Below are positions 11,247-31,445 of a stretch of DNA of 64,000 nucleotides, in pieces. Within the stretch, counting starts at the first letter, position 1. Each line of letters starts with the position of its first letter. Both the position numbers and the translations under genes were made by a program. The stretch lies in the NCBI RefSeq assembly GCF_001645765.1, contig NZ_LWUJ01000011.1, positions 62,001 to 126,000 of the forward strand, given 5' to 3'. The notes beneath the pieces were generated by a model. It made no database searches. It was not told the DNA's origin and worked only from the letters and a program-made list of their open reading frames with translations. The stretch is from Candidatus Mycoplasma haematobovis. GTDB lineage: Bacteria > Bacillota_I > Bacilli_A > Mycoplasmatales > Mycoplasmoidaceae.

Positions 11247-12152
11247 TTAAATAAGAAAAGAGGCATAATAAGCTATCATTGCAGCATTGTCTCCTGCATA
11301 ATTTAAGTCAACTAGTAAAGTAGGCGCTTTAAGTTCATTTAGTCTAGATCTTAAGTATTTATTAGCAGCAACACCACCAGATACTGTTATGCAATTAGTA
11401 TTGGTTTTCTCAATTCAATATTTAAGTTTATTAATTAATTCATTAATAACTCAAGATTGAAAAACAGTAGCAATATATTCCTTATTGCTTTCTGTTTCGC
11501 AGAGTCTTAGTGTAGCACTTAATATTCCTCCGTAACTAAAAAGTTTAGCAGGATTAGATTTTTGTTTTAATAAAGGTTTAACTTTTAATTCATTATCAAA
11601 TAGAGAATCTATAATTGGGCCACCGGGATAATCAAGTCCTAATCTTCTTGCTACTTTATCATATATCTCACCTAAAGCATTATCAGTAGCACTATCTAAA
11701 GTAATTATTTCGCTATAGCTCTTTACATAGAATAAAGAAGTAGTTTTACCTGATACTACTAGAGCTAAGTGGGGGAATATTAATTTATTAGTTAAGCCTA
11801 CTGAGAATATATGACCATATACATGGTTAATAGGAATTAAGGGTTTATTAAGTAGAAAAGAGAGTGTTTTGGCAAATATCTTGCCAACTAATAAACAACC
11901 TATTAATCCAGGATGATCAGTATAGGCGATATGAGTAATATCGTTAATAGAAAGATTATTCTTATTTAGTAATTCAAGTAATAGAGGTAGTATATGTTCT
12001 TCGTGATTTCTAGATGCTATTTCTGGAACTACACCTCCTCATTTATTTTGTAGTTTTGAAGACGATATAGTAAGAACATCAATAAGTTTATGATTTTGAA
12101 CTATAGCAAGAGAAGTATCATCACAACTGGTCTCAATGCCTAATATCAGCAC
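11247..12152 (-). CDS. tsaD: tRNA threonylcarbamoyladenosine transferase TsaD
   Basis: A 301-residue ASKHA-fold protein (family about 310-340). Seen: GIETSCDDTSLAI at the N-terminus, the metal-binding pair in INHVYGH near residue 112, YPGGPIID near residue 180, and VSGGVAANKYLR near residue 265. It transfers the threonylcarbamoyl group from TsaC product to A37 of ANN-decoding tRNAs. The usual GGHT loop is replaced by GKTT. The start is a GTG at 12150-12152 giving the canonical first residues; it shares one base with the stop of the last potD copy. tsaC (60021-60524) and a possible TsaB (1318-1704) are also in the window. Confidence 0.92.
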
Positions 12153-13534
12153 TAAATCAATAATTTAAAGTTACTGTAAGCAATTAACATATCGCTTTTT
12201 TGTTGTGAATCCAATTGTCTTTCGTAGTCTTGTGATAACTTTCCATTTGCGGGCTTATCTACTTTAATAATTTCATGCTTAGTACTTTCCTTAACTAATT
12301 CTTCATCATCTGAATCATCTGAATCATCTTTAAAATATTTATTTAAAGCTGAATAAACCTTCTCCAAAGTTGGAGTATATTGAACTTCATCAAAATTTTG
12401 CGCTACTATTTCTTCATATGGTTTGTCGCCTTCCTCTTCTTCACTACCTACAGAACTAACAACTGAATCGACATCCCCAGAATCTTCTCCTTCTTTTCTA
12501 AATGGATTTTTTACCTCGTCTTTAAGAAAGAGTAAATCTTTTGCTAATTTGTAAGCTTTATCTTTCTTCTCTTCGGACATTTTGTTTGAAAAAGTTAAGA
12601 AATCTAAGAAGAATATATTCTCAGATAACTCAACATGATGAAAATCAGTTTCCTTTATCTTTAACTCTGCGTTTCCTCCATTAGCAGCAAATAAACCATC
12701 ACCGTTGTACATAAAAGCGCCTTGAATGTCTTTATTACTTAGGGCATCAACCATAGGACCAGAATCAGGAGTCATGTATAAGAAATTGTCTCCCATCACT
12801 TTTTTGTCTAATCCAGCACTAATTAATTTTTTGTAGTCGTTAAGTATTGATTCAGAATTTTTGTATTCATCTTCGTTTGGATTTACGTCTTGTTTATTTC
12901 CTACTTTTCTAGCTAAAGAGAGTACAGTTCTTGGATCATCTATTAAACCTAACTGAGGCTTGCCATTTTTGCTGTGAAATCTATTATCGTTAGAAATTTT
13001 TTCAATTAAAGTCTTAAATGTCACTGGTTCTTGTAAGTCTTTAATTTTTTCTCCTCGATAATAGAATCCCAATTTTTGAACAAAGTAAGGGATTCCATAC
13101 TCCAATAAATCATGTGACATATCCTTAACAATATCTGTAAATAAGGCCCTTGCATCTTCAATAGTTTTCTTTGGTTTATTTAATTGTTGCCCATTATTTA
13201 CTTCATTACCTTGAGAAATAGTTTCATCTCCAAGCAATTTACTTCAATCTAATTTCATTGCTACGCCAGAGCTCTTGAGCTCTGAAAGAACAGATGTACT
13301 TGTGATAGCTATATCATAGATTCCTTTCTGGAATCTCTCTTTAACTAAATGGTCATAGTCAAAAAGGTCTACCCTTAATTGATATTTTTCTCTGAGTTTC
13401 TGAGCCACATCTGAAGAGATGTAATCACTATAGTTACCAAATACTAAATCATTACTGTTACTTGATTTTCCTATTAATAAGCCAGAGGCGGCTGTGACTC
13501 ATGTCGCAAACCCAATACCAAGCTTCTTAAGCAT
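12152..13534 (-). CDS. potD: PotD-like polyamine-type binding protein, copy 1 of 6
   Basis: A 460-residue protein starting at the ATG 13532-13534 with two UGA-Trp codons near the N-terminus. A hydrophobic export segment (residues 5-22) lacks a lipobox cysteine. It is followed by PotD-like blocks: FGNYSDYISSDVAQ, then DYDHLVKERFQKGIYDIAI (mobile-lobe strand pattern of SBP_bac_8 proteins), YGIPYFVQKLGFYY, LIDDPRTVLSLARKV, MTPDSGPMVDALSN, GAFMYNGDGLFAA and FFLDFLTF. Two acidic, variable linkers (including DDSDDSDDEE) precede the near-invariant C-terminus SDMLIAYSNFKLL. Such proteins deliver spermidine/putrescine to PotABC; the ligand here is inferred from the operon. It ends the array, next to tsaD. 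Confidence 0.85.
12960..13090. repeat. 131-nt exact repeat B1 inside potD copy 1
   Basis: Identical to 14332-14462 in copy 2, while the flanks differ at many positions. It encodes the segment between YGIPYFVQ and LIDDPRTV. Confidence 0.92.
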
Positions 13535-13602
13535 GGTAATATTGAAAAATATTCATTAACTAAACTAGCAATTTGAAATTACTATAGGCAATTAACATGT
13601 CG
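13407..13602. repeat. 196-nt exact repeat A1 (potD copy 1/2 junction)
   Basis: This 196-nt segment covers the 5' end of potD copy 1, the 25-nt gap and the 3' end of copy 2. By direct comparison it is identical to 16088-16283, which covers the copy 3/4 junction. Identity ends abruptly on both sides. Confidence 0.92.
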
Positions 13603-14891
13603 CTTTTCTTTTGAGCATCTAATTGTTTTTCAAATTCTTTATCAATGGAATGATTTTCGGATTTTTCTACTTTAAGAATTTCATGTTTTGTAGTGGCATT
13701 GATTGACTTTTTTTCGTCTTCGTCTTTAAAGTAACAATTTTTTAATTTTTCATATACAGATTTCAATGTTGGAGTATACAAGACATCATTAAAATTTCTA
13801 ACTGCCATTTCTTCATATTCTTTTCCATCATCACCTTCACTTTCGGAACTTAATTTAGATTTTTCTTTAAATGGATTATCTTTGTTTTTGTTAGTAATAA
13901 ATAATAACTCTTTTGCCATTTTGTAAGCGTTTGTTTTCTTATGTTCTGTCATTTTTGCTGAAAAAGTTAAGAAATCTAAAAAGAATATATTTTCTGACAA
14001 TTTAACATAATGAAATTTATCTCCTTCCATATCTAATTCTGCATTTCCACCTTCTGCAGCAAATAAACCGTCGCCATTATACATAAAGGCGCCTTGAATA
14101 TCTCCGCTACTCAAGGCATCAACAAGAGGACCAGAATCTGGAGTCATATACAAGAAATTTTCTCCTAATTTATTCCTACTTAAGCCACTTGTTATTAATG
14201 TTTTGTAATCATTCAAAATTGAGTCAGAAGTTTTGTATTCATTATCAGAAGGATTTACATCTTCATGTCCTTTAACTTTTCTGGCTAGTGAAAGTACTGT
14301 TCTAGGATCGTCTATTAAGCCTAATTGAGCTTTGCCATTTTTGCTGTGAAATCTATTATCGTTAGAAATTTTTTCAATTAAAGTCTTAAATGTCACTGGT
14401 TCTTGTAAGTCTTTAATTTTTTCTCCTCGATAATAGAATCCCAATTTTTGAACAAAGTAAGGTATTCCATAATCTAATAGATCTTTTGACATATATTGAA
14501 CAATATCAGTAAACAATCCAACAGCATCTTTAGAAGTTTTTTGTTCTGAACTTGTATTTCCAGATCCGCCAACGTTATCTTCTTCTTTAAGTAATATACT
14601 TCAATCTAATTTCATTGCTACTCCAGAGCTCTTGAGCTCTGAAAGCACAGATGTACTTACAACTGCAATATCGTAAATGCCTTTTTGGAATCTTTCTTTA
14701 ACTAAATGGTCGTAGTCAAATAAATCAACTCTTAATTTGTATTTCTTTCTTAATTCTTGAGCTACATCGGAGGAAATATAGTCACTGTAATTTCCAAATA
14801 CTAAATCATTACTACTTCCAGCTTTTCCTAAAAGTAATCCTGAAGAAGCTGTAACCCAGACTGAAAGTCCGGCCACCAACTTCTTAATCAT
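13560..14891 (-). CDS. potD: PotD-like binding protein, copy 2 of 6
   Basis: A 443-residue paralogue starting at the ATG 14889-14891. Its first 95 residues are nearly identical to those of copy 5 (MIKKLVAGLSVWVTASSG), not to those of adjacent copy 1, whereas a 131-nt internal block (14332-14462) is identical to copy 1. It keeps all PotD-like blocks, YGIPYFVQKLGFYY, LIDDPRTVLSLARKV and GAFMYNGDGLFAA. The variable linkers are shorter and Ser/Glu/Lys-rich, and one carries a Cys. The last residues are SDMLIAYSNFKLLV. The gap to copy 1 is 25 nt. Confidence 0.84.
14332..14462. repeat. 131-nt exact repeat B2 inside potD copy 2
   Basis: Partner of 12960-13090. Copy 2 otherwise resembles copy 5 at its N-terminus, so the block marks a mosaic boundary. 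Confidence 0.92.
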
Positions 14892-14916
14892 TTTGATAAT
14901 AAAAAATATTCATTAA

Positions 14917-16215
14917 CTAAACTAGCAATTTGAAATTACTATAGGCAATTAACATGTCGCTTTTCTTTTGGGAAGAAAGTTGTTTTTCGTAATCATGTTC
15001 TAAGTTACCTCCTTCTGTTTTTTCGACCTTAATAATTTCGTGTTTTGTTTTGCCCTTCACTAATCCCTTTGCATCTTCATCTTCATCTTCAAAATACTTT
15101 TCAAGTTTTCTATATACAGAGTCAAGGGTCGGGGTGTATCAAACGTCGTCAAAATTTCTGGCCATCATCTCTACATACTTTTCATTTTCATCCTCCTTAA
15201 AAGGATCATCCTTGTTTTCATCGCTAATAAACAGTAATTTCTTGGCCATTTCGTAAGCTTTTTCTTGTTTTTCTTTTGACATTTTGGAAGAAAATGTCAA
15301 GAAATCTAAGAAAAATATGTTCTCAGCTAACTCAACTGTATGAAATTCACCGTCTTTAATTTTCTTTTTGGCATTTCCGCCAGCTGAAGCGAATAATCCA
15401 TCACCATTGTACATAAATGCTCCTTTGATATCTCCTCCACTTAATGCATCAACCATAGGTCCAGAATCTGGAGTCATATACAAGAAATTTTCGCCCATTC
15501 GATCCTTATTTAAACCACTATCTATCAAATATCTATAATCAGACAAAATCTCTTGTGAAGTTCGATATTCATGTTCTTTAGGGTTTACATCTTGTTTGCC
15601 TACAACTTTTCTAGCTAAAGACAGTACTGTTCTAGGATCGTCTATTAAGCCTAATTGAGCTTTGCCATTTTTGCTGTGAAATCTACTATCACTTGAAACT
15701 ATTTCAACTAAATCTTTAAACTTAACCTTCTTTCCTTTTCCCAATGCTTCAATTGGTTTTCCTGTATAGTAGAAACTCAGTTTTTGTACAAAGTAAGGTA
15801 TTCCATATTCCAATAAATCATGTGACATATCTCTAACTATTTCAGTAAATAATTTTCTTGCATCTTCAACAGTCTTACTTTCTGAGTTCTGAGTTTGTTC
15901 ATTGCTTTTTCCTAATAATTTACTCCAATCTAATTTCAAAACTGCATTAGAACTCTTTAATTCAAAGAGTACTGAAGTGCTTGTGATAGCTATATCGTAG
16001 ATTCCTTTCTGGAATCTCTCTTTAACTAAATGGTCATAATCAAATAAATCAACTCTTAGTTGATATTTTTCTCTGAGCTCTTGAGCTACATCTGAAGAGA
16101 TGTAATCACTATAGTTACCAAATACTAAATCATTACTGTTACTTGATTTTCCTATTAATAAGCCAGAGGCGGCTGTGACTCATGTCGCAAACCCAATACC
16201 AAGCTTCTTAAGCAT
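14917..16215 (-). CDS. potD: PotD-like binding protein, copy 3 of 6
   Basis: The shortest copy, 432 residues, starting at the ATG 16213-16215. The signal region matches copy 1 at nucleotide level, including the following intergenic bases (block 16088-16283 identical to 13407-13602). Copy-specific differences include LSFYYTGKPIEALGKGKK instead of GFYYRGEKI and a compact acidic linker. It retains GLIDDPRTVLSLARKV, MTPDSGPMVDALSGGDI and FFLDFLTFSSKM. The C-terminus is of the GGNLEHDYEKQL type shared with copy 6. Confidence 0.84.
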
Positions 16216-16283
16216 GGTAATATTGAAAAATATTCATTAACTAAACTAGCAATTTGAAATTACTATAGGCAATTAACATGTCG
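16088..16283. repeat. 196-nt exact repeat A2 (potD copy 3/4 junction)
   Basis: Direct repeat partner of 13407-13602, in the same orientation, 2.68 kb away. It spans the start of copy 3, the intergenic gap and the end of copy 4. Because the identity includes non-coding bases it reflects duplication or exchange of DNA, not protein selection. Confidence 0.92.
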
Positions 16284-17611
16284 TTTTTTTGTTGTGAATC
16301 TAATTGTCTTTCATATTCTTGCGATAATGTGCCAGTTTTTGGTTTTTCTACTTTAAGAATTTCATGTTTTTTAGTTCACTTAACTGATTCATCCTCTGTG
16401 GATGATAAAGTATCTTCTGTTTCAGATGTATCATCTTCATCATTAAGGTATTTATATAATTTACCATATACAGACTGAAGTGTTGGTGTATATCCTACAT
16501 AGTCAAAATTTCTGATTGCCATTTCTTCATATTTTGCCTCTTCTTCTCCTTCTTGTTTTGCTTGTTTCTTAAATGGCTCTTCTGTATTACCAATAAATAT
16601 TAATTTTTTTGCTAAGCCATAGGCTTTCTCTTGCTTATCAGGGGACATTTTTGAAGAAAATGTTAGGAAATCTAAAAAATAAATGTTTTCGGAAAGATTA
16701 ACATAATGAAAATCTTTTTCATTTATTTCTTCCTTTGCATTGCCTCCTTCAGATGCAAAATAGCCGTCTCCATTGTACATGAAAGCACCCTCAATACTTT
16801 TAGAACTAAGGGCGTCTACTAGAGTTCCTGAGTCAGGACTCATTAATAAGAAGTTATTGCCTAAATTTTCTATACTTAAACCTTTATTTATTAAAGTTCT
16901 GTAATCCTTGAGTATCGCTTCAGAACTACTGTACTCACTTTCCTTAGGGTTTACATCTTGTTTGCCTGCAACTTTTCTAGCTAAAGACAGTACTGTTCTA
17001 GGATCGTCTATTAAGCCTATTTTGGGTTTTCCATCTTTACTTTTGAATCTATCATCTTTAGAAATCTCTTCAATTAATTTTGAAAAAGTAACCGGCTGTT
17101 GATCCTTTAAACCGGCAATTTCTTCGCCTCGATAATAGAATCCCAACTTTTGAATAAAGTAGGGTATTCCATACTCCAAAAGATCTTGAGACATATCTTG
17201 AACAATCTCTGTAAATAACTTTCTTGCGTCTTCAACGGTTTTTGAATTTCCTGTTTCAGAAACATTACTTTCTGTTCTGCCTACATTTCCATCATTAGTG
17301 CCGTTTCCTAATAACCTGCTTCAGTCAAGCTTCAAGGCAGCTCCAGAACTCTTTAATTCAGAAAGTACTGAAGTGCTTGTTATTGCTATATCATAGATTC
17401 CTTTCTGGAATCTCTCTTTAACTAAATGGTCATAATCAAATAAATCAACTCTTAGTTGATATTTTTCTCTGAGCTCTTGAGCTACATTTGAAGAGATGTA
17501 ATCACTATAGTTACCAAATACTAAATCATTACTGTTACTTGATTTTCCTAGAAGTAATCCTGAAGAAGCCGCAACTCAAGTTGTAAGACTTATTGTTAAT
17601 TTCTTAATCAT
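16241..17611 (-). CDS. potD: PotD-like binding protein, copy 4 of 6
   Basis: A 456-residue copy starting at the ATG 17609-17611. The export segment is MIKKLTISLTTWVAASSG. The ligand-lobe block reads MSPDSGTLVDALSSKSI, the T-L variant shared with copy 6, and the tyrosine variant DGYFASEGG replaces DGLFAA. The acidic C-terminal linker is long and Ser/Thr/Glu/Asp-rich. Its 3' 40 nt match copies 2 and 3, while the segment 17128-17227 is the same as 18518-18617 in copy 5. Only four bases separate its start from the stop of copy 5. Confidence 0.84.
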
Positions 17612-17615
17612 AAAA

Positions 17616-18980
17616 TTAAACTAGCAATTTGAAATTACTATAGGCAATTAACATATCATTCTTTTGTCGAGAATCTAATTGTCTTTCATATTCTTGCGAT
17701 AATGTGCCAGTTTTTGGTTTTTCTACTTTAATAATTTCATGTTTTGTAGTACCCTTAATTAATTCATCTTTTTCATCTTTGAAATACTCTTCTAATTTGT
17801 CATATACAGACTTAAGCGTTGGAGTGTATTGAACTTCATCAAAATTTCTAACAACCATTTCTTCGTAAGGTGACTCTTCATCATCCTCACTATCCTCTGC
17901 TGCCGCTACAGAATTACTTAAACCATTTTCTCCTTTTGATTTCTTATTTTGCTTTCTTAATACATCTTCCTTATCGTTTTTAAGAAACAAAAGATCTTTA
18001 GCAAGCCCATAGGCTTTTTCTTTTTTGCTATCTGACATATTCGCTGATAAAGTTAAGAAATCTAGGAAAAATATATTTTCTGACAATTCAACATAATGAA
18101 AATCATTAGCATTTATTTCTTTTGAAGCATTGCCGCCACTAGCGGCAAATAAGCCATCACCGTTGTACATAAATGCTCCTTTGATATCTCCGCTACTCAA
18201 GGCATCAACAAGAGGGCCAGAATCTGGAGTCATATATAAGAAGTTTTCTCCTAATTTATTCTTATCTAGACCCGCATTAATTAGTTGCCTATAATCGTCA
18301 AGTATTAATTGAGAATTTTTGTATTCTTCTTTGCTTGGATTTACGTCTTGTTTATTTCCTACTTTTCTAGCTAAAGAGAGTACAGTTCTTGGATCATCTA
18401 TTAAGCCTAATTTAGGTTTTCCATCTTTACTATGAAATCTATTATCGCTAGAAATTACTTCAATTAATTTCTTGAAAGTCACTGGTTGATCTTTTTTCAA
18501 GTTCTCAATTTCATTTCCTCGATAATAGAATCCCAACTTTTGAATAAAGTAGGGTATTCCATACTCCAAAAGATCTTGAGACATATCTTGAACAATCTCT
18601 GTAAATAACTTTCTTGCATCTTCAACAGTTTTTGGGGTGTTATTGTCTATACTACTTGTGCTGTCATTTTCTTTTGTAAGTAACTTACTTCAGTCAAGCT
18701 TCAAGGCAGCTCCAGAACTCTTTAATTCAGAGAGTACTGAAGTACTTGTTATTGCTATATCATAGATTCCTTTTTGGAATCTTTCTTTAACTAAATGGTC
18801 GTAGTCAAATAAATCAACTCTTAATTTGTATTTCTTTCTTAATTCTTGAGCTACATCAGAAGAAATATAATCACTGTAATTTCCAAATACTAAATCATTA
18901 CTACTTCCAGCTTTTCCTAAAAGTAATCCTGAAGAAGCTGTAACCCAGACTGAAAGTCCGGCCACCAACTTCTTAATCAT
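17616..18980 (-). CDS. potD: PotD-like binding protein, copy 5 of 6
   Basis: A 454-residue copy starting at the ATG 18978-18980, with an N-terminal ~95 residues almost identical to copy 2. Core blocks are intact: FGNYSDYISSDVAQ, YGIPYFIQKLGFYY, LIDDPRTVLSLARKV, MTPDSGPLVDALSSGDI and GAFMYNGDGLFAA. The linker after the LLFLKN segment contains two acidic runs and a Ser/Ala patch. The C-terminus is of the GTLSQEYERQL type, shared with copies 1 and 4. No lipobox cysteine is present. Confidence 0.84.
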
Positions 18981-19001
18981 TGATATATGAAGAAAACATT
19001 G

Positions 19002-20405
19002 TTAAATTAGTAACTTAAAGTTACTATAGGCAATCAACATATCACTCTTTTGTTGGGCAGATATTTGTTTTTCATATTCATGCTCTAACTTACCTCCAAC
19101 TGTTTTTTCAACTTTAATAATTTTGCTTTTTAGTTTGCTTTTGATTTTTTCTGTACCCTCAGTTGCAGGTTTTGCAGGTTCATCATTAATATCAAAATAA
19201 TCTTTATCTAATTTCTCATATACAGATTTCAATGTTGGAGTGTATCCAACCTCATCAAAATTCCTAATTGCCATTTCTTCGTAAGGCGGTTCATCGTCAT
19301 CTTCACCATTATTACTTGCATCTGTTGAATCTTCTTCATCATTCTCTTCTTCCTTGCTAGATCCATCTCCCCCTTTTCTTTTGAAAGGATTTTCTTTATT
19401 TGCCTCTGTAATAAATAACAAATCTTTTGCCAACTTGTAAGCATTCTCTAATTTATGCTTTGGCATTTTCTCTGAGAAAGTTAAGAAATCCAAAAAGAAA
19501 ATATTTTCTGACAATTCAACAGTATGGAATTTCTCTGGTTCTTTTTTGGCGTTACCTCCATAAGCAGCAAATAAACCATCACCGTTGTACATAAATGCTC
19601 CTTTGATATCTCCACCACTTAATGCATCAACTAAAGTGCCTGAGTCTGGACTCATTAGTAAAAAATCTTTACCTAACTTATCTCTACTTAATCCATTATC
19701 AATTAAAGACCTATAGTCCTTCAAAATTGAATTAGAGTCAGGATAGTCATTCTCTTTAGGATTTACATCTTGTTTGCCTGCCACTTTCCTAGCAAAAGAA
19801 AGAACAGTTCTAGGGTCATCTATTAATCCTAATTGAGGCTTACCTCCTTGACTTTTGAATCTTGGTTCATTTGAAACTTTATTTACTAAATCTTTAAAGG
19901 ATACTTTCTGCCCATCCCTTAAGCCTTCAATAGGATCTCCTATATAGTAAAAACTTAACTTCTGAACAAAGTAAGGTATTCCATATTCCAATAAATCATG
20001 TGACATATCCTTAACAATATCTGTAAATAATTCTCTAGCCTTAGAAAGAGCAGTATTTGAATCTAATTGACCGTTGCCACTATTAGTAACGTCTTCTTTC
20101 TTAAGTAACTTACTCCAATCTAGCTTCATAGCTGCATTAGAGCTCTTTAGTTCTGAAAGTACAGAAGTACTTACAATAGCCATATCATAGATTCCTTTCT
20201 GGAATCTCTCTTTAACTAAATGGTCATAATCAAATAAATCAACTCTTAGTTGATATTTTTCTCTGAGCTCTTGAGCTACATCTGAAGAGATGTAATCACT
20301 ATAGTTACCAAATACTATGTCATTACTGCTTCATGACCTGCCTATTAATAAACCAGAAGCAGCTGTAGCTCAGGCAGAAATACCAATTACTAATTTCTTA
20401 ATCAT
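19002..20405 (-). CDS. potD: PotD-like binding protein, copy 6 of 6 (permease-proximal)
   Basis: The longest copy, 467 residues, starting at the ATG 20403-20405, eight bases inside the end of potC, so translation is probably coupled to the permease. The N-terminus (MIKKLVIGISAWATAASG, then SWSSNDIVFGN) is its own variant. The linker between LLFITEANKENP and the YEEMAIRNFD block is the longest of the six and highly acidic. The core keeps LIDDPRTVLSFARKV, MSPDSGTLVDALSGGDI and GAFMYNGDGLFAAYGG. As the copy attached to potC it is the most likely ancestral binding protein; that is inference from position. Confidence 0.86.
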
Positions 20406-21243
20406 TAGATCTTCATGATTTAATTGCCCAGTTTACTAAGAATACTCCAGTAATACCTAAAATCATTAGTGTTCCAAATACTGTAGATCAAGCTTTAACA
20501 CCTTGTTTCATGTTGTAAAGTTCAGTTGTTATTGTTGAGACACTACCTTTAACTAAATTAGTAATAATAAAGTCATCAAAAGAAATAGAAAATACTAATA
20601 ATGCTGCCCCTGCTAAGTTAGGGAGTAGCATAGGAACTAGTATTTCAAATAAACATTCGAAAAAACCATAATTTAAATCATAAGAAGCATAGAGAACAGA
20701 CTTGCTTATTTTTGATAACTTAGGATAAATAAAGACAATCACATAAGGAATAGAGAAAGCAACATGAGCTAATATTATGGTAAAAAAGCCTAAGTCAATT
20801 CCTAATGGAACAAGAAGTGCATAGAATAATATTGAAAAAGCTATTCCTTGAATAATATCTGGGCAAGAAATAGAGAAATTACTAGTAGCAAAGACATAAT
20901 TCTTATTTCTTTCATTATGTCTTCAAATATTTACTGCTGTTAATAAACCAATAAATACAGCGATAGGTGTAGCTACGAAAGCAATAGTAAAGGAGTTAGT
21001 GAGAGCATTAAACATACCCCCATTAAAGCCTTCTTCATCAGTAAAAAATTTACGATAGTTTTCAAAATTAAATTGATTAAATTGAAGTTTAGTTACAACA
21101 TTATCCTTCTTATCATGGGCATTATTAAATGAAAGTAGCATGAAAACTGCTAAAGGAACATAGAGAAATAAAAAAATAAGCAATATGAATGAAGATTGGA
21201 ATCTTTGTTTTCATTTTTGACCGTCAATAGCAAGGCTAATCAT
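20398..21243 (-). CDS. potC: Spermidine/putrescine ABC permease PotC
   Basis: A 281-residue inner-membrane permease with UGA-Trp codons. About six hydrophobic segments are present, beginning with ILLIFLFLYVPLAVFMLLSFN. The cytoplasmic coupling loop appears in LYASYDLNYGFFECLFEILVPMLLPN, matching the family EAA pattern. The ISFDDFIITNLVKG segment typical of PotC follows. It pairs with PotB and is energised by PotA. The ATG at 21241-21243 overlaps the potB stop by 8 nt, and its own end overlaps potD copy 6 by 8 nt. Confidence 0.92.
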
Positions 21244-22066
21244 TGTCTTTCTTTTGTTGTAGAAATTTAGGAAGGAACTTAACTAAGAAATAAACTAAGA
21301 ATACTATTGAAGATACAAATAGAGTCAAGAAAGAAGCTCTTGATTTTGGTAGAGAGCCACTAATATCAACAATAATAAAGTTATTGATTACTTGTCCGAT
21401 CATTGAACCACCTGGACTCCTATCCATAAAATCTGCTACAGTAACTGTAGTGAAAGCTGGAAGAAATACTAGAAATATTGCTGAAAGAAGTGCCTCTTTG
21501 GTATAGGGAAGAATTATTTGTGAAAAGGTCTCGGGGGGAGTTGAACCCAAATCATAAGAAGCATTAATTAGATTCCTAGGTAATTGAGTTAATACATTGT
21601 AAAAAGAAAGTATTGCAATGGGCAAGTGTATATAAACTAGCCCTATAATCACATAGATAATTCCTGAAGTACTATTGCTACTTCCATAAAGTAAATCAAA
21701 AAAAGTCTTTAATCCCAATAACTTTACAAAATAACTACTCCACAATGGAGAGGATATTAAGAGAATTAATAGGCTCTTTACTTTCTTTGATTCAACTTCA
21801 GATACAAAATATGCAAAAGGATAACCTAATAGAAAAACAAATAATACTGTTACGAAAGCTACATAGAGACTCTTTATTGTTATTTTGACATTACTCATAT
21901 TTACGGCAGCAACATTATTCTCTATTCCATTTGCTTGGTTAAATGCATGATAAATAACAATAAATATTGGAAGTATTATGAAAAAGAAAGCAAAGAAATT
22001 AAAGATATTAATTCCATTATTTAATTTCTTTGTTCTGTCAATCCCAACAAAAAATAAGTTAAGCAT
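21236..22066 (-). CDS. potB: Spermidine/putrescine ABC permease PotB
   Basis: A 276-residue permease starting with the ATG 22064-22066. Six hydrophobic segments are visible, the first IFNFFAFFFIILPIFIVIYHAF. The coupling loop reads INASYDLGSTPPETFSQIILP, the classic EAA motif, and TVADFMDRSPGGSMIGQVI is typical of PotB. It overlaps potA by 8 nt at the 5' side and potC by 8 nt at the 3' side, so potA-B-C-D6 is a tight operon. Confidence 0.93.
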   Translation of the reverse strand: MLNLFFVGIDRTKKLNNGINIFNFFAFFFIILPIFIVIYHAFNQANGIENNVAAVNMSNVKITIKSLYVAFVTVLFVFLLGYPFAYFVSEVESKKVKSLLILLISSPLWSSYFVKLLGLKTFFDLLYGSSNSTSGIIYVIIGLVYIHLPIAILSFYNVLTQLPRNLINASYDLGSTPPETFSQIILPYTKEALLSAIFLVFLPAFTTVTVADFMDRSPGGSMIGQVINNFIIVDISGSLPKSRASFLTLFVSSIVFLVYFLVKFLPKFLQQKKDND

Positions 22067-23417
22067 CTAATTTCATAACATGCACATCCATTGCATCTCA
22101 CACTAATCCTACTGTCTTACCTATCATTACTTCATTAATAGCCTCAACATAAATAATCTCTTCAAACAACTGACATCTTAATTCTCATAACTGTCCTTTG
22201 TAAATAGCATCTATTACTTGGACACTTACTATACCTCTAGAACTATCTACTACATCGTAATCTTCTGGTCTAATCATTACATATACTTTTTCATTGGCTG
22301 TAAATCCCTCCCTAACATCAGTAATAAATTCTTTATCTCCTACTAATACCGCTCCTGGTCTTAAATAAACACCATTAAATATATTTGCTTTACCCATAAA
22401 AGAAGCAACTCATTTATTAGTAGGAGAGTCATAAAGTTCAGAAGGAGTACCTATTTGCTCTACATTACCCTTTCTCATAACTACAATCTTGTCTGAGAGT
22501 AGTAGAGCCTCTTTTTGATTATGAGTAATAAGAACAAAGGTGATTTTCAATTGTTTATGTAATCTCTTTAACTCTAATTGCAACTTCTCTCTTACTTCTT
22601 CATCTAAAGCCGATAAAGGCTCATCTAATAAGAGTATTTTAGGTTTAGTAATAATTGCTCTTGCTAAAGCTACTCTTTGTTGTTGTCCACCAGAAAGAGA
22701 AGAATGTTTAACTTTCTCTTTTCCCTCTAAACCAACTAAAGAAATAATATTTCTTACTCTATCATTAATTTCCTTTTGATTTAAAGGTCTTTGTAAATAC
22801 TTATTTGAGAGTTTTTTCTGTTGAAGTATAGGGTAGTATTCTCAATAAGATTTTCAATAATCTAAATCATTAATTCTGAATATGTAACTCTTAAGATATC
22901 AAAGCTTTAATTTATAGAATACACTCTCTTTATCTAATTCCCTAATACTCTTCTTTAATTTAAGAGCTTTATTTGATAAGTATTTAATTTGTACATTAAG
23001 TTTCTCTAATTTCTTATTTGACTTCTCTATTGCTAAGTTATGTAATCTCTTAGTGTTATCTAGTACTTCTTTAGTTACATTTGATTTATTAGTAAACATC
23101 TTTTTGAGTCCAAAAGAGATATTTTCAAATACATTCATATGTGGGAATAAAGCATAGTCTTGGAATACTGTGGCTGTAGGTCTGTGGTATGGAGGAATAT
23201 CTTTAATATCTATGCCATTTAAAAGTATTTTGCCTGAATCTGGTTTAATAAATCCCGAAATTAAGTTAAGAATCGTGGATTTTCCGGAGCCAGAAGAGCC
23301 TAATATTGAAACGAATGAACCTTCTTCGATATCTAAATCAAAATTTGAAAGAACTCTATTTTTCCTATCGTAAGTTTTGTTTATTGAACGAAGAGAAATA
23401 AAAACCTTTTCAGACAA
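22059..23417 (-). CDS. potA: Spermidine/putrescine ABC ATPase PotA with coiled insertion
   Basis: A 452-residue ATPase. Seen: Walker [10 protein letters not shown] (residue 37), Q-loop [12 protein letters not shown], signature [14 protein letters not shown], Walker [13 protein letters not shown] and a C-terminal TOBE-type regulatory domain with [12 protein letters not shown] Lys-rich helical insertion of roughly 130 residues separates the Q-loop from the signature; enlarged PotA proteins are also known in other mycoplasmas. The only possible start before Walker A is the TTG at 23415-23417, immediately after the stop of the preceding gene. Two UGA codons are read as Trp. Confidence 0.93.
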
Positions 23418-24641
23418 TTAAAGATTTCCAAACTCCCTTTCAGCGGCTTCTTTATTTTCTTGTATTATTTTCATAGATTCATCAGCTTTTCATTTGTAGC
23501 TTTTAATACCAGAAATCTTCTCATTGTATTTCTTCAATTCTTCATATTTAGCTGAAGCTTGTTCATAATAAGAATCAAGCTTTTTAATTATAGAATCAAT
23601 AAATTTAATTAATTCTATAGTTAGGGACTTGTATAGCAAAGTTCTGTGGTTTAATAAATAAGAGATTCTATCTTGTATTTGGTAAGCAGATTTAAAATCA
23701 TTAGCTGATTGTATTTCTTGTATTCTAGAAAGTGAGGAATACAAAGCCATGTGTTTACTTTCTAATTCTGCTATTTCTTCTTCTGAAGCTAAAGGAGCTC
23801 TAGCATAATTAAATAATTCTTCATCTTCAACATCTTTACCAAATTCTAATGCTACTTCTCTCTTAGCTTTTTCAATAGCAGCTTCTTTTGATCTTCCTAA
23901 AATTTCATCTAATACTTCAGCATCTTGGTAAGCATCCTTAGGTATGTAATCATCATCTGCCTCAGTTATTATGCCTCTATATACTTTATGAACTGGATAT
24001 GTAGATAAGTAACTCTTAACTTCAGATAATTCAGGAGTATCTGGGGCTGGTTCGGGTATTGGTGCTTGTTCTTTTTTAAACTCTATTAAGCTCTGAATTA
24101 CTTCTGCTCTTTCTCTTCTTTCAATAAGTGCAATCTCATTATCACTACCAAAGGCAGAGTCATAAATAGCTTCATCTACTTCACTTAATTTACCTTTAAA
24201 TAGAGCTTTAGGTAGTGTATTGAATACAAACTCTTTCTCTTCTTCTTTCTTCTCTACTTTAGTACTTGTTACTACTGGCTTATCAAATACTGCTTTACCT
24301 CTTTCTGCTACTTGTTTTTCAAAATCATTCTTATTAATAACTGTAATAATTTCATCACCATCAAAATCTATATGTAGTTTTTTCTCTTCTTTTTTGGCTA
24401 ATTTAACAGAAGCTATATTTATTACATCATCACATTCAAAGACTACCTTACCAGCTTTGGTTGTTTGTTTAACTACTACAGCTACATGAGGATTAAAGGC
24501 ATCATAAATATCATCAACTGAGAAGTCAACTATAGCATCATCCCCATGCTCTTTGTAAGAAGGGTGAGATGATAAATCAGGAATTTCGAGCTTTCTCCTC
24601 TCGAGCTGAAGTGACTCTTGTTCCTGTTGATTATTATCCAT
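23418..24641 (-). CDS. Acidic helical hypothetical protein upstream of potA
   Basis: A 407-residue protein not recognised. It is strongly charged: a Gln/Glu-rich start, a beta-like segment around residues 45-115 (VAVVVKQTTKAGKVVFECDD and INKNDFEKQ), a Pro/Glu linker with PIPEPAPDTPE near residue 195, and a long helical, coiled-coil-like C-terminal half rich in Glu, Lys and Ala. There is no signal peptide or membrane segment. The single UGA-Trp lies near the C-terminus. Its TAA directly precedes the potA start and its ATG overlaps the preceding gene by one base, so it is in the same transcript. A structural or scaffolding role is only a guess. Confidence 0.8.
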
Positions 24642-25345
24642 TAAGCAACTTTATTCCTAGGTTCTTCATATTCAATCTCTACTTTAGGTATTCCTTTTTC
24701 ATATATATCTTCTTTTCTTAACTTCTTATTTAACTTACCTAATCTTATTTCATCATTGTCTACAACAACGAAATCACCGTCATAAGTTTCAAATATATCT
24801 GCATTAAATCTAAGAACTGCTTTTTCTAAAGCACTAAACTTTCTTTTTACTTCTTCTGTTATTAAGTTTAAATAATGAGGGCACTTTTCGGGCCTTCATA
24901 ATTCTGATACTTCAAAAAAATGTGAGTGTCCTGCATCTTCAAAAGGATCACTAGGAAAGAATTCTATTTTTTGTCTAAATTTGAAAATAAATTTTTCAAA
25001 TAAACTAATACCAAAATATAGTTTTTCATAAGTATTATCAAAAGGAAATATTACACCATCATATTTAGGAAATAAAGTATATCTTTGTACTTTTTCTAGG
25101 AATAAATAGTCTGCTTCATATTTTCTAGCAATAGTACCACTATCAAATAATTCTTCTTCGAAGAAATTAGTAGCTCTTCCAACTTTAAGCTTATGCAAAA
25201 ATTCATACTTTAAGAATCTAAAGAAAGAAGTAGCAGTTCTCTTTAAATTTTGAAGATCAAAAACAACTATATCTCTTACAGAAAAATAGCTTTTGAAACG
25301 GGGGGGAGTAGGAGTAGAGTATATCTCTTGTAAAGTTATTTCCAT
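24641..25345 (-). CDS. Hypothetical protein, aromatic-rich
   Basis: A 234-residue protein not recognised. I take the ATG at 25343-25345, which forms a TAATG stop-start overlap with the upstream gene, rather than a TTG 12 nt earlier. It is rich in Phe, Tyr, Lys and Glu. A motif-free N-terminal half holds FFRFLKYEFLHKLKVGRATN, and the C-terminal 80 residues contain repeated charged segments and a FNADIFETYDGDFVVVDND stretch that looks like a small beta-barrel strand pair. There is no transmembrane segment. It is one of three adjacent unknowns between gpmI and potA. Confidence 0.75.
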
Positions 25346-28720: not shown

Positions 28721-29650
28721 TTAAATATAGAAACTTTTTTCAAAAATGTTGCATATTAATTTTTTAAAAAGTAAATAAACCACGCATCCTAATCAACATA
28801 CTATAGCAAAAGCAATAAGCTTTTGTTTTCTGTTGTTTACAGATAGTCTATGGTTACATAGACATTCGTCCATAATCTTATCAGGTGGATAGACTTCCTC
28901 TAAAGCTTTAATAATTTTTGTAGAACGAGATCTAGCAATAGCATAACATAGTAACCAAAATGGAATAACCATTCAAGAGAGACTAGTTAATCCGGCAACA
29001 GTATCTTCTCCAAAACCTAATTTACCAGTCATGTTAAATAATCTTGATTTGCCCTCAATGCCCGCTGCCTTTAGTATTCCAGAAACTATCACACAATATA
29101 CACCAGTTACTATTGAAAGACCTACTAAAGTAATCATTATTCAGAATTGAGAACTTCTTCTGCAATACTGTAACACATAAAATTCTTGAACAAGTTCATT
29201 AGGCTTGTCGGGAAGTCCTTTAAGAAATCTTTTCTTCTCTACCGAGTAATATCTATTTTGTCTCTTTACAGCAATAATCTTTGCCATTAATCCCAATGTT
29301 GCCATTGAAGCAAAAGGAATAACGAGAATGGCTTCTTTTTGACTACATTTACTGTTGCTGTTGCTGAAATCTAAAACCTTAGTAGCATATAGGGCTCCTA
29401 TTGCCCCTAAAAAAGCTAAGAGAAATAAGACTCAAAATAGAGTCATTTGAGTTTGTCTTTTCAGAGCTGTATGACAACATCTATAGGCTTTACTTGTAGG
29501 ATTGTAAAAGTAGTCATCATCTACTTCTTCATCCCCAGCTAACTCATCAATTAATCTTTCATCCTCTTCAGAAAGTATTCGTTCTGTATCTAAGAACTCT
29601 CCTTCTTCCTTTTCGGGTTGTTGCTCTTGTTGCTGTGTATTATCTTCCAT
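28721..29650 (-). CDS. Acidic-leader multipass membrane protein, paralogue A
   Basis: A 309-residue protein; first of three tandem paralogues. The N-terminal 55 residues are dominated by Gln, Glu and Asp, then comes the family motif KAYRCCHTALKRQTQ, followed by about five hydrophobic segments. Between segments 2 and 3 lies LPDKPNELVQEFYVLQYCRR, and between 4 and 5 the motif TKIIKALEEVYPPDKIMDECLCNHRL. No known family is recognised. The conserved Cys/His motifs are the same in the other two copies apart from loss of one Cys here (CRRSSQ for CRKCSQ). Four or more UGA codons are read as Trp. Confidence 0.75.
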
Positions 29651-29666
29651 AACTGTTGCTTATTTT

Positions 29667-30581
29667 TTATACTTGAAAGCTCCTTTCAAATATAGTACAA
29701 GTAAATCGCTTAAAGAAAAAATAAATAAAGAATCCTAATGAACATACTATAGCAAAAGCAATAAGTTTCTTTCTCTTATTACTTGCCTCTAATTTGTGAT
29801 TACATAAAGAACAATCAATTATTTCTGCCTTTGGATAAGTTCTCTCTAGAGACTTAATAATTTTGTCTGTTCTTAAAGAAGCAACACCATAACATAAAGC
29901 TCAAATAGGTAAGGTCATTCAAGAAAGAGTAGTTACTGCCGCTACTGTATCCTGCCCAAATCCTAAATTACTAGACATCTCAAATAAACCTGAGTGTCCT
30001 GTTTGTCCGCATGCTTTCAAAATAGCCGAAACTATTACACAATAAATTCCAGTAATAATCGAAAGTACTGTAAGTATTATGAAAATTCAATATTGCGAAC
30101 ACTTCCTGCATTGTTGAAGTACATAAAATTCTTGAATTAATTTATTTGGTTTTTCAGGTAAAGCAATTGTGTAATTATGTTTTTCAGATAAGAAAAAACC
30201 ATTTTGCATCTTAAGTGCTACTATCTTAGCAACTATAGCAATAGCCGCAACAGAAGCAAAAGGTATAGCAGTTATAGTAGGTCTTTTTTTGCTATCGAAA
30301 TCTAAAGCTTTAGTAGCAAAAAGAGTTGCTATTCCTCCCAAGAATACCAAGAGAAATAGAACTCATAAGAATATTAAGCTAGTTTGTCGTTTAAGTGCTT
30401 CATGACAGCACTTGTAAGCCTTACTACTAGGATCATAGACACAAACAAATTCCTCCTCTTTCTTTAATTCTTCTTCCTCTTGTTTTTCCTCCTCTGGTTC
30501 CTCAACTATTTCTTCCTCTTCTTCATCCTCGGCAAGTATCTCGTCCTTATCTAAAAACTCTTCCTCTTGATTATCCGCCAT
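29667..30581 (-). CDS. Acidic-leader multipass membrane protein, paralogue B
   Basis: A 304-residue paralogue. The N-terminal 55 residues are almost entirely Glu, Asp and Lys, a more extreme acidic run than in paralogue A. Shared motifs are KAYKCCHEALKRQT, LPEKPNKLIQEFYVLQQCRK followed by CSQYW, and IIDCSLCNHKL. Five hydrophobic segments are seen; the last is followed by a short basic tail. It starts at the ATG 30579-30581. The gaps to its neighbours are 16 nt and 3 nt. Function unknown. Confidence 0.75.
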
Positions 30582-30584
30582 AAC

Positions 30585-31445
30585 CTATAGATGAAAACTT
30601 CTTCTAAAGAGTGTGCAAAGAAATTTTTTTGTAAATAAGAAGATAACGCATCCTAATAGAGCTATTGTGGCAAAAGAGAAGATCTTTAATTTTCTATTAA
30701 GTAATGCTAATCTATGATTGCACAAGGCTATATCAATAATTTGGTCTGAAGGATAAAGTTCTTCTAGAGATTTAATGATTTTATTAGTTCTGATAGTAGC
30801 CAAAGAATAAAGAGCAAATCAGATAGGAATTAACATTCAGGACACATGAGTTACTGTAGTGCAAGTATCTGTGCCAAATCATTTATCTGGACCACTCTCA
30901 AACAATTTTGATTGTTGTTGTTGTGCGGCTCTAAGAATACCTGATGCTATTACGCCATATACACTTGTAGTAAAAGAAAGACAAACAAGTACTAGTGTTA
31001 TTCAATATTGTGAACACTTCCTGCATTGTTGAAGTACATAAAATTCTTGCATCAACTTATTAGGTTGTTCTGGTAATGCATCAACAAAGTTTGGTTTTTC
31101 ATAAGAATAATATTTATTCTGTTTCTTAAGAGTAACTATCTTTGCAATTATTGCACCAGCTGCCGCGGCGGCAAATGGTATGACCGTTATGGCTTCTGTT
31201 TTTTTATTACTAAAGTCTAAATAGCTTTTTCCATACAATGCCCCTATTGCCCCTAAAAAAAGAACAAGAAATAATAATCAAAAAGTAGCCATTTGTGTTT
31301 GTCTCTTAAGCGCAGCATGACAGCACTTATAGGCCTTACTAGCTTGATTGTAGAAGTACTCACTACTTGCTTCCTCTTCTTCCCCTCCAGCAAATATTTG
31401 ATCTTTATCTAAGAAATCTTGATCTAATATCTGTGTATCAACCAC
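30585..31445 (-). CDS. Acidic-leader multipass membrane protein, paralogue C
   Basis: A 286-residue paralogue with a shorter, less acidic leader. It begins at a GTG (31443-31445) whose G is the last base of the TAG of the preceding gene. Family motifs are KAYKCCHAALKRQTQ, LPEQPNKLMQEFYVLQQCRK plus CSQYW, and IIDIALCNHRLALLNRK. The second hydrophobic segment is an alanine-rich helix (PFAAAAAGAIIAKIV). Several UGA codons are read as Trp. No function is known. Confidence 0.75.

Follow-up and report, generated by a model that had tools for sequence, protein, structure and literature searches.

The window, by which we mean the whole 64,000-nucleotide stretch of DNA analysed here, covers positions 62001-126000 of a contig in the draft genome of INIFAP01, a Mexican cattle isolate of 'Candidatus Mycoplasma haemobos', the organism now called haematobovis (PMC4939789; PMC9607299, Table 1), and contains six intact, co-oriented potD-like genes sandwiched between potC and tsaD on the minus strand. 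Read with genetic code 4, the order along this strand is potA, encoding the ATPase (22059-23417), the permease genes potB (21236-22066) and potC (20398-21243), six complete PotD-like genes, tsaD (11247-12152) and metK. Code 4, in which TGA encodes tryptophan, is required to read all six copies as single uninterrupted ORFs, which are 432-467 amino acids long. The first in the operon is copy 6 (c6; 19002-20405, 467 amino acids, 155.8 bits against Pfam family PF02030), followed by c5 (17616-18980, 454 amino acids, 187.7 bits), c4 (16241-17611, 456 amino acids, 177.7 bits), c3 (14917-16215, 432 amino acids, 159.4 bits), c2 (13560-14891, 443 amino acids, 180.1 bits) and, last, c1 (12152-13534, 460 amino acids, 166.7 bits). 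Because the gaps within the array measure only 4-25 nt and the start of c6 overlaps the stop of potC by 8 nt, the six copies are likely to be co-transcribed. The downstream neighbour, tsaD, also adjoins potD in M. haemocanis and others. Upstream of potA lie two genes (23418-25345) that M. haemofelis and M. haemocanis also carry in this position; searches of Pfam and NCBIfam gave nothing for the first of the two. The genome comprises 935,638 bases in 18 contigs, and the array is known from one isolate and one short-read draft assembly.

All six copies match PF02030 (Lipoprotein_8, the MG045 family) above the cut-off, at 156-188 bits, and comparison of the family profile with Escherichia coli PotD gave a probability of 98.9 (E 1.5e-17). 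In a profile search of the PDB the match to PotD/PotF extended over the N-terminal lobe only. PotA, PotB and PotC are encoded alongside, the context expected of a PotD/MG045 protein. PF13416 has zero matches in the genome and was rejected; PF02030 is the right family. An AlphaFold2 model of copy 5, calculated from 8 sequences, had a mean pLDDT of 39 and a pTM of 0.29 and was discarded. For E. coli PotD we take the ligand positions to be Y37, S83, D168 and D257, which are retained in the array; W34, T35, E36, W229 and W255, which are conservatively changed; Y85 and E171, which are replaced by S and T respectively; and Y293 and Q327, which did not align. All 11 mappable positions on this list are invariant in the six copies, compared with 52% of alignment columns overall. 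We infer that the six proteins would all bind the same polyamine-type ligand. The lipobox cysteine found near the N-terminus of many mycoplasma relatives is absent from the six proteins and from those of M. haemofelis and M. haemocanis, and an N-terminal helix that stays uncleaved may serve as the anchor.

The copies have diverged considerably, with pairwise identities of 69.8-76.7% in DNA and 64.5-74.9% in protein and synonymous distances of 0.75-1.47. For all pairs dN/dS lies between 0.15 and 0.26, and purifying selection acts on every one. Between copies otherwise this divergent, exact runs of 100-196 nt are unexpected. The sequence-only reading had drawn attention to several of these, all on the minus strand. 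Two proved exact as it had claimed: a 131-nt tract shared by c1 and c2 (12960-13090 = 14332-14462), whose flanks fall to 67% and 73% identity on the two sides, and a 196-nt tract that runs from the 3' end of c2 through the intergenic gap into the 5' end of c1 (13407-13602) and recurs across c4, gap and c3 (16088-16283). A further sharing, between c4 and c5, is real, although what had been described as near-exact over 17128-17227 and 18518-18617 is in fact exact and spans 101 nt (17127-17227 = 18517-18617). The N-termini of the non-adjacent c2 and c5, which it took to be almost identical, indeed share a tract (14680-14892 with 18769-18981) made up of exact pieces of 111 nt (14782-14892 = 18871-18981) and 89 nt (14680-14768 = 18769-18857). 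Of the C-terminal types it proposed, 1/4/5 and 3/6, only the sharing between c4 and c5 is recent (71 nt with 1 mismatch; pS 0.04 in codons 421-460); c1 resembles c4 and c5, and c3 resembles c6, only as older types, with C-terminal pS of 0.30-0.41. We also observed blocks it had missed: an exact 130-nt tract in the non-adjacent c3 and c6 (15998-16127 = 20188-20317), blocks of 100 nt and 94 nt that c4 shares with c6 and c3 respectively, and one of 70 nt common to c1 and c5.

Chance is excluded as the source of these blocks. In a GENECONV-style analysis the longest identical runs, counted in polymorphic sites, were 69 for c1/c2, 51 for c1/c3, 45 for c2/c5 and 36 for c4/c5, whereas after permutation of the polymorphic columns no pair exceeded 25 sites and the c1/c2 maximum was 21 in 10,000 permutations. 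This was the kind of test the sequence-only reading had suggested, and the shared runs were significant, with a global p <= 0.001 in 10 of the 15 copy pairs. Compatibility along the alignment pointed the same way, with a PHI of 0.422 against 0.495 +/- 0.005 in permutations (z = -15.9). The trees of seven segments conflict in AU tests; for codons 1-40 four trees from later segments were rejected at p < 1e-17 and the whole-gene tree gave a p of 0.02. The segments were picked by hand after the windows had been viewed, and we therefore rely more on the permutations and on PHI. When the coding alignment was scanned with a hidden Markov model, 21 shared tracts of 45 nt or more emerged; 40 codon-permuted control alignments averaged 0.6 tracts and gave 2 at most. 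As a rough control within the window, a second tandem trio (28721-31445), which lies beside triosephosphate isomerase and has no Pfam match above the cut-off, has a longest exact match of 38 nt; its paralogs, at 51-56% protein identity, are more divergent than the potD array.

Along c1, similarity switches between copies 3, 6, 2 and 5 in succession. Within tracts pS is 0, against 0.5-0.9 (about 0.6) around them, and the tracts differ between pairs: in codons 1-40 pS is 0 for both c1/c3 and c2/c5 and 0.75 for c1/c2, while across codons 161-200 c1/c2 drops to 0 and the remaining pairs lie at 0.35-0.83. Selective constraint was considered as an explanation for the identical blocks and rejected, as other pairs differ at 75% of synonymous sites in the same codons; which pair is identical changes along the gene, as DNA exchange predicts. 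The mosaic history proposed from the first inspection, with repeated recombination and borders that differ by pair, is therefore strongly supported by the permutations, pS windows, PHI and AU tests and HMM tracts, and a single tree for all segments, the outcome named at the time as contrary to it, is rejected by PHI and AU. Local near-identity tracts between paralogs, with histories that differ by segment, are the pattern of gene conversion and concerted evolution.

The array is monophyletic: in the tree c1 to c6 are separated from all other sequences with a support of 97. M. haemofelis and M. haemocanis each carry one potD in the syntenic slot potA-B-C-D-tsaD-metK. We searched 95 genomes of the family and found no tandem potD array in the other 94; elsewhere, more than one potD match was seen only in the genomes matching M. 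ovis and M. wenyonii and in a small number whose matches are split or double. Across the few genomes available, potD is multi-copy in three cattle or sheep hemoplasma genomes and single in six whose sizes match those of species from cats, dogs, pigs and camelids. The genome matching M. wenyonii Massachusetts in length (650,228 bases) has two potD genes, in opposite orientations and separated by some 51 kb, that are identical over 147 nt at their 5' ends (locus L046, 3314-3460; partner in L047) and have a pS of 0.04 in codons 1-40 against 0.57-0.67 in codons 321-400. The genome matching M. ovis Michigan in length (702,511 bases) has four dispersed loci, two intact and two frame-broken, which are 76-81% alike, lie close to small repeated two-gene units and show significant shared runs in several pairs. 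The expansion in the M. ovis-matching genome is separate from that in the window, and the dispersed duplicates of both genomes carry conversion-like tracts.

Taken together, amplification of an array, divergence of its members and repeated conversion of short segments very probably make up the explanation of what we observe. The six-gene tandem array would have arisen by amplification of one potD, the last gene of a potABCD operon, in the 'Ca. M. haemobos' lineage after its split from M. haemofelis and M. haemocanis. The copies would then have diverged over a long time, while short segments of about 50-210 nt, some reaching across an intergenic gap, were repeatedly copied from unit to unit. 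This copying would have proceeded by RecA-type homologous recombination at the remaining runs of identity, most probably as non-reciprocal gene conversion. RecA is encoded in the genome; a search of the genome gave no clear match for RuvB. Gene conversion is the likeliest mechanism of exchange. Many tracts are bounded on both sides by divergent sequence within genes, and several join non-adjacent units (c2/c5, c3/c6, c1/c5), which favours short conversions over single unequal crossovers. A chain of successive unequal crossovers, with gain and loss of units, could leave similar patches, but unequal crossing-over between tandem units offers no explanation for the 147-nt block in the inverted, dispersed M. 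wenyonii pair, and we infer non-reciprocal conversion in preference to multiple crossovers.

The exchanges are unevenly placed. Three variable segments, at alignment codons 103-135, 336-395 and 396-447, are only 10-33% invariant, rich in indels, copy-specific and variable in length. These loops are mostly acidic and mostly longer than those of single-copy relatives, the first measuring 20-30 amino acids here against 9-10. The tracts are confined to conserved regions, in the N-terminal and middle parts of the gene and at its extreme C-terminal end, and none of the 21 HMM tracts lies in alignment codons 103-135 or 282-447. The visible exchanges thus homogenise the scaffold, and the loops remain private to each copy. 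It is possible that older crossovers, now invisible, reassorted the loops, which may plausibly have a surface role.

Why six copies have been kept could have several answers. The one we favour, tentatively and with somewhat less than even confidence, is that the copies became fixed through a dosage benefit in polyamine uptake or through drift, and that conversion follows from their tandem homology without being selected, a form of neutral concerted evolution. The tracts sit where homology is highest, the pocket positions are invariant, the copies are under purifying selection and a complete potABC adjoins the array; in addition, polyamine synthesis is reportedly absent from M. haemofelis (PMC3196708). 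Dosage alone, however, leaves the lengthened, copy-specific loops unexplained, and six binding proteins are encoded with only one potABC. Surface diversification is the main alternative, because the loops are copy-specific, lengthened and mostly acidic. In one form of it, which we consider possible but doubtful, blood mycoplasmas, above all those of cattle and sheep, would have made the substrate-binding part of a polyamine transporter into a surface repertoire of several co-expressed copies, in which conversion maintains a common scaffold and pocket beneath copy-specific loops; the M. ovis/M. wenyonii line would have taken the same course independently.

In another form, recombination would have been selected for shuffling exposed segments into new surface variants during infection. 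The copies do recombine, the loops are indel-rich and longer than in single-copy relatives, and a role in antigenic variation has been widely proposed for the paralog families of hemoplasmas (PMC3196708, PMC3496576). Against this, the tracts miss the loops entirely, pN/pS in loop windows is below 1, and as the six copies are apparently co-expressed, exchange would not alter which variant is displayed. Neither silent cassettes nor a promoter or homopolymer tract that could act as a switch was seen in the array; scans of it for inverted repeats and for promoters and terminators gave nothing to suggest a switch, and its simple repeats are short. Antigenic diversification by the array, suggested from the sequence alone as a possible outcome of the shuffling, is possible, although we regard selection for it as unlikely. 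Specialisation of each copy for a different ligand, which a divergence of 25-35% in amino acids might suggest, is very improbable because the mapped ligand positions are identical in all six copies. Least probable is a mosaic created by assembler misjoins at repeats or by chimeric reads: the assembly is a short-read SPAdes draft (PMC4939789) and the 131- and 196-nt blocks are longer than usual assembler k-mers, but the reported 300-base paired-end reads (PMC4939789) are long enough to cover the longest exact block of 196 nt, the copies differ elsewhere at about 25% of sites, all ORFs are intact, potC and tsaD anchor the array as in relatives, and 21 patches are too numerous for a few misjoins.

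Conversion between copies of surface genes is well known in mycoplasmas, usually with silent archives. Compared with other PotD-type mycoplasma proteins (PF02030, MG045) and E. coli PotD, the array agrees in its profile match and its potA, potB and potC neighbours and differs in being a tandem set of six where they have one, in lacking the lipobox cysteine of many mycoplasma relatives and in its long variable loops. In Mycoplasma genitalium an expression site, mgpB/mgpC, is fed by a partial, dispersed MgPar archive, and variation has been seen in vitro and in one patient (PMC2169797). Both are cases of patchy recombination among homologous copies in a small mycoplasma genome, but the potD copies are full-length and lie in one operon, known from a single isolate. 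The vlhA system of M. synoviae likewise involves recombination between members of a surface-protein family, with one promoter and pseudogene donors (PMC2825196), an arrangement that the potD array lacks. Neither a single expressed locus with partial or promoterless donors nor exchange within variable segments, as in mgpB/mgpC and vlhA, is found in the array. The paralogous families of hemoplasmas (PMC3196708, PMC3496576) come from the same bacterial group and share paralog expansion with an antigenic role that is only proposed; they are mostly short and of unknown function, whereas potD is a core transport gene. The hemoplasma literature searched makes no mention of the array. Also comparable are the duplicates in the M. 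ovis- and M. wenyonii-matching genomes, independent copies with N-terminal near-identity tracts, which differ in being dispersed, partly broken in M. ovis and outside any tandem operon array. The locus calls for caution in potD-based diagnostics, and between potC and tsaD it offers a defined, sequenceable site at which to ask whether uncultivable hemoplasmas diversify during chronic infection. What distinguishes the array from these known systems is a core nutrient-binding gene amplified sixfold within one operon, with a scaffold that is shared and repeatedly converted and loops that are private to each copy.
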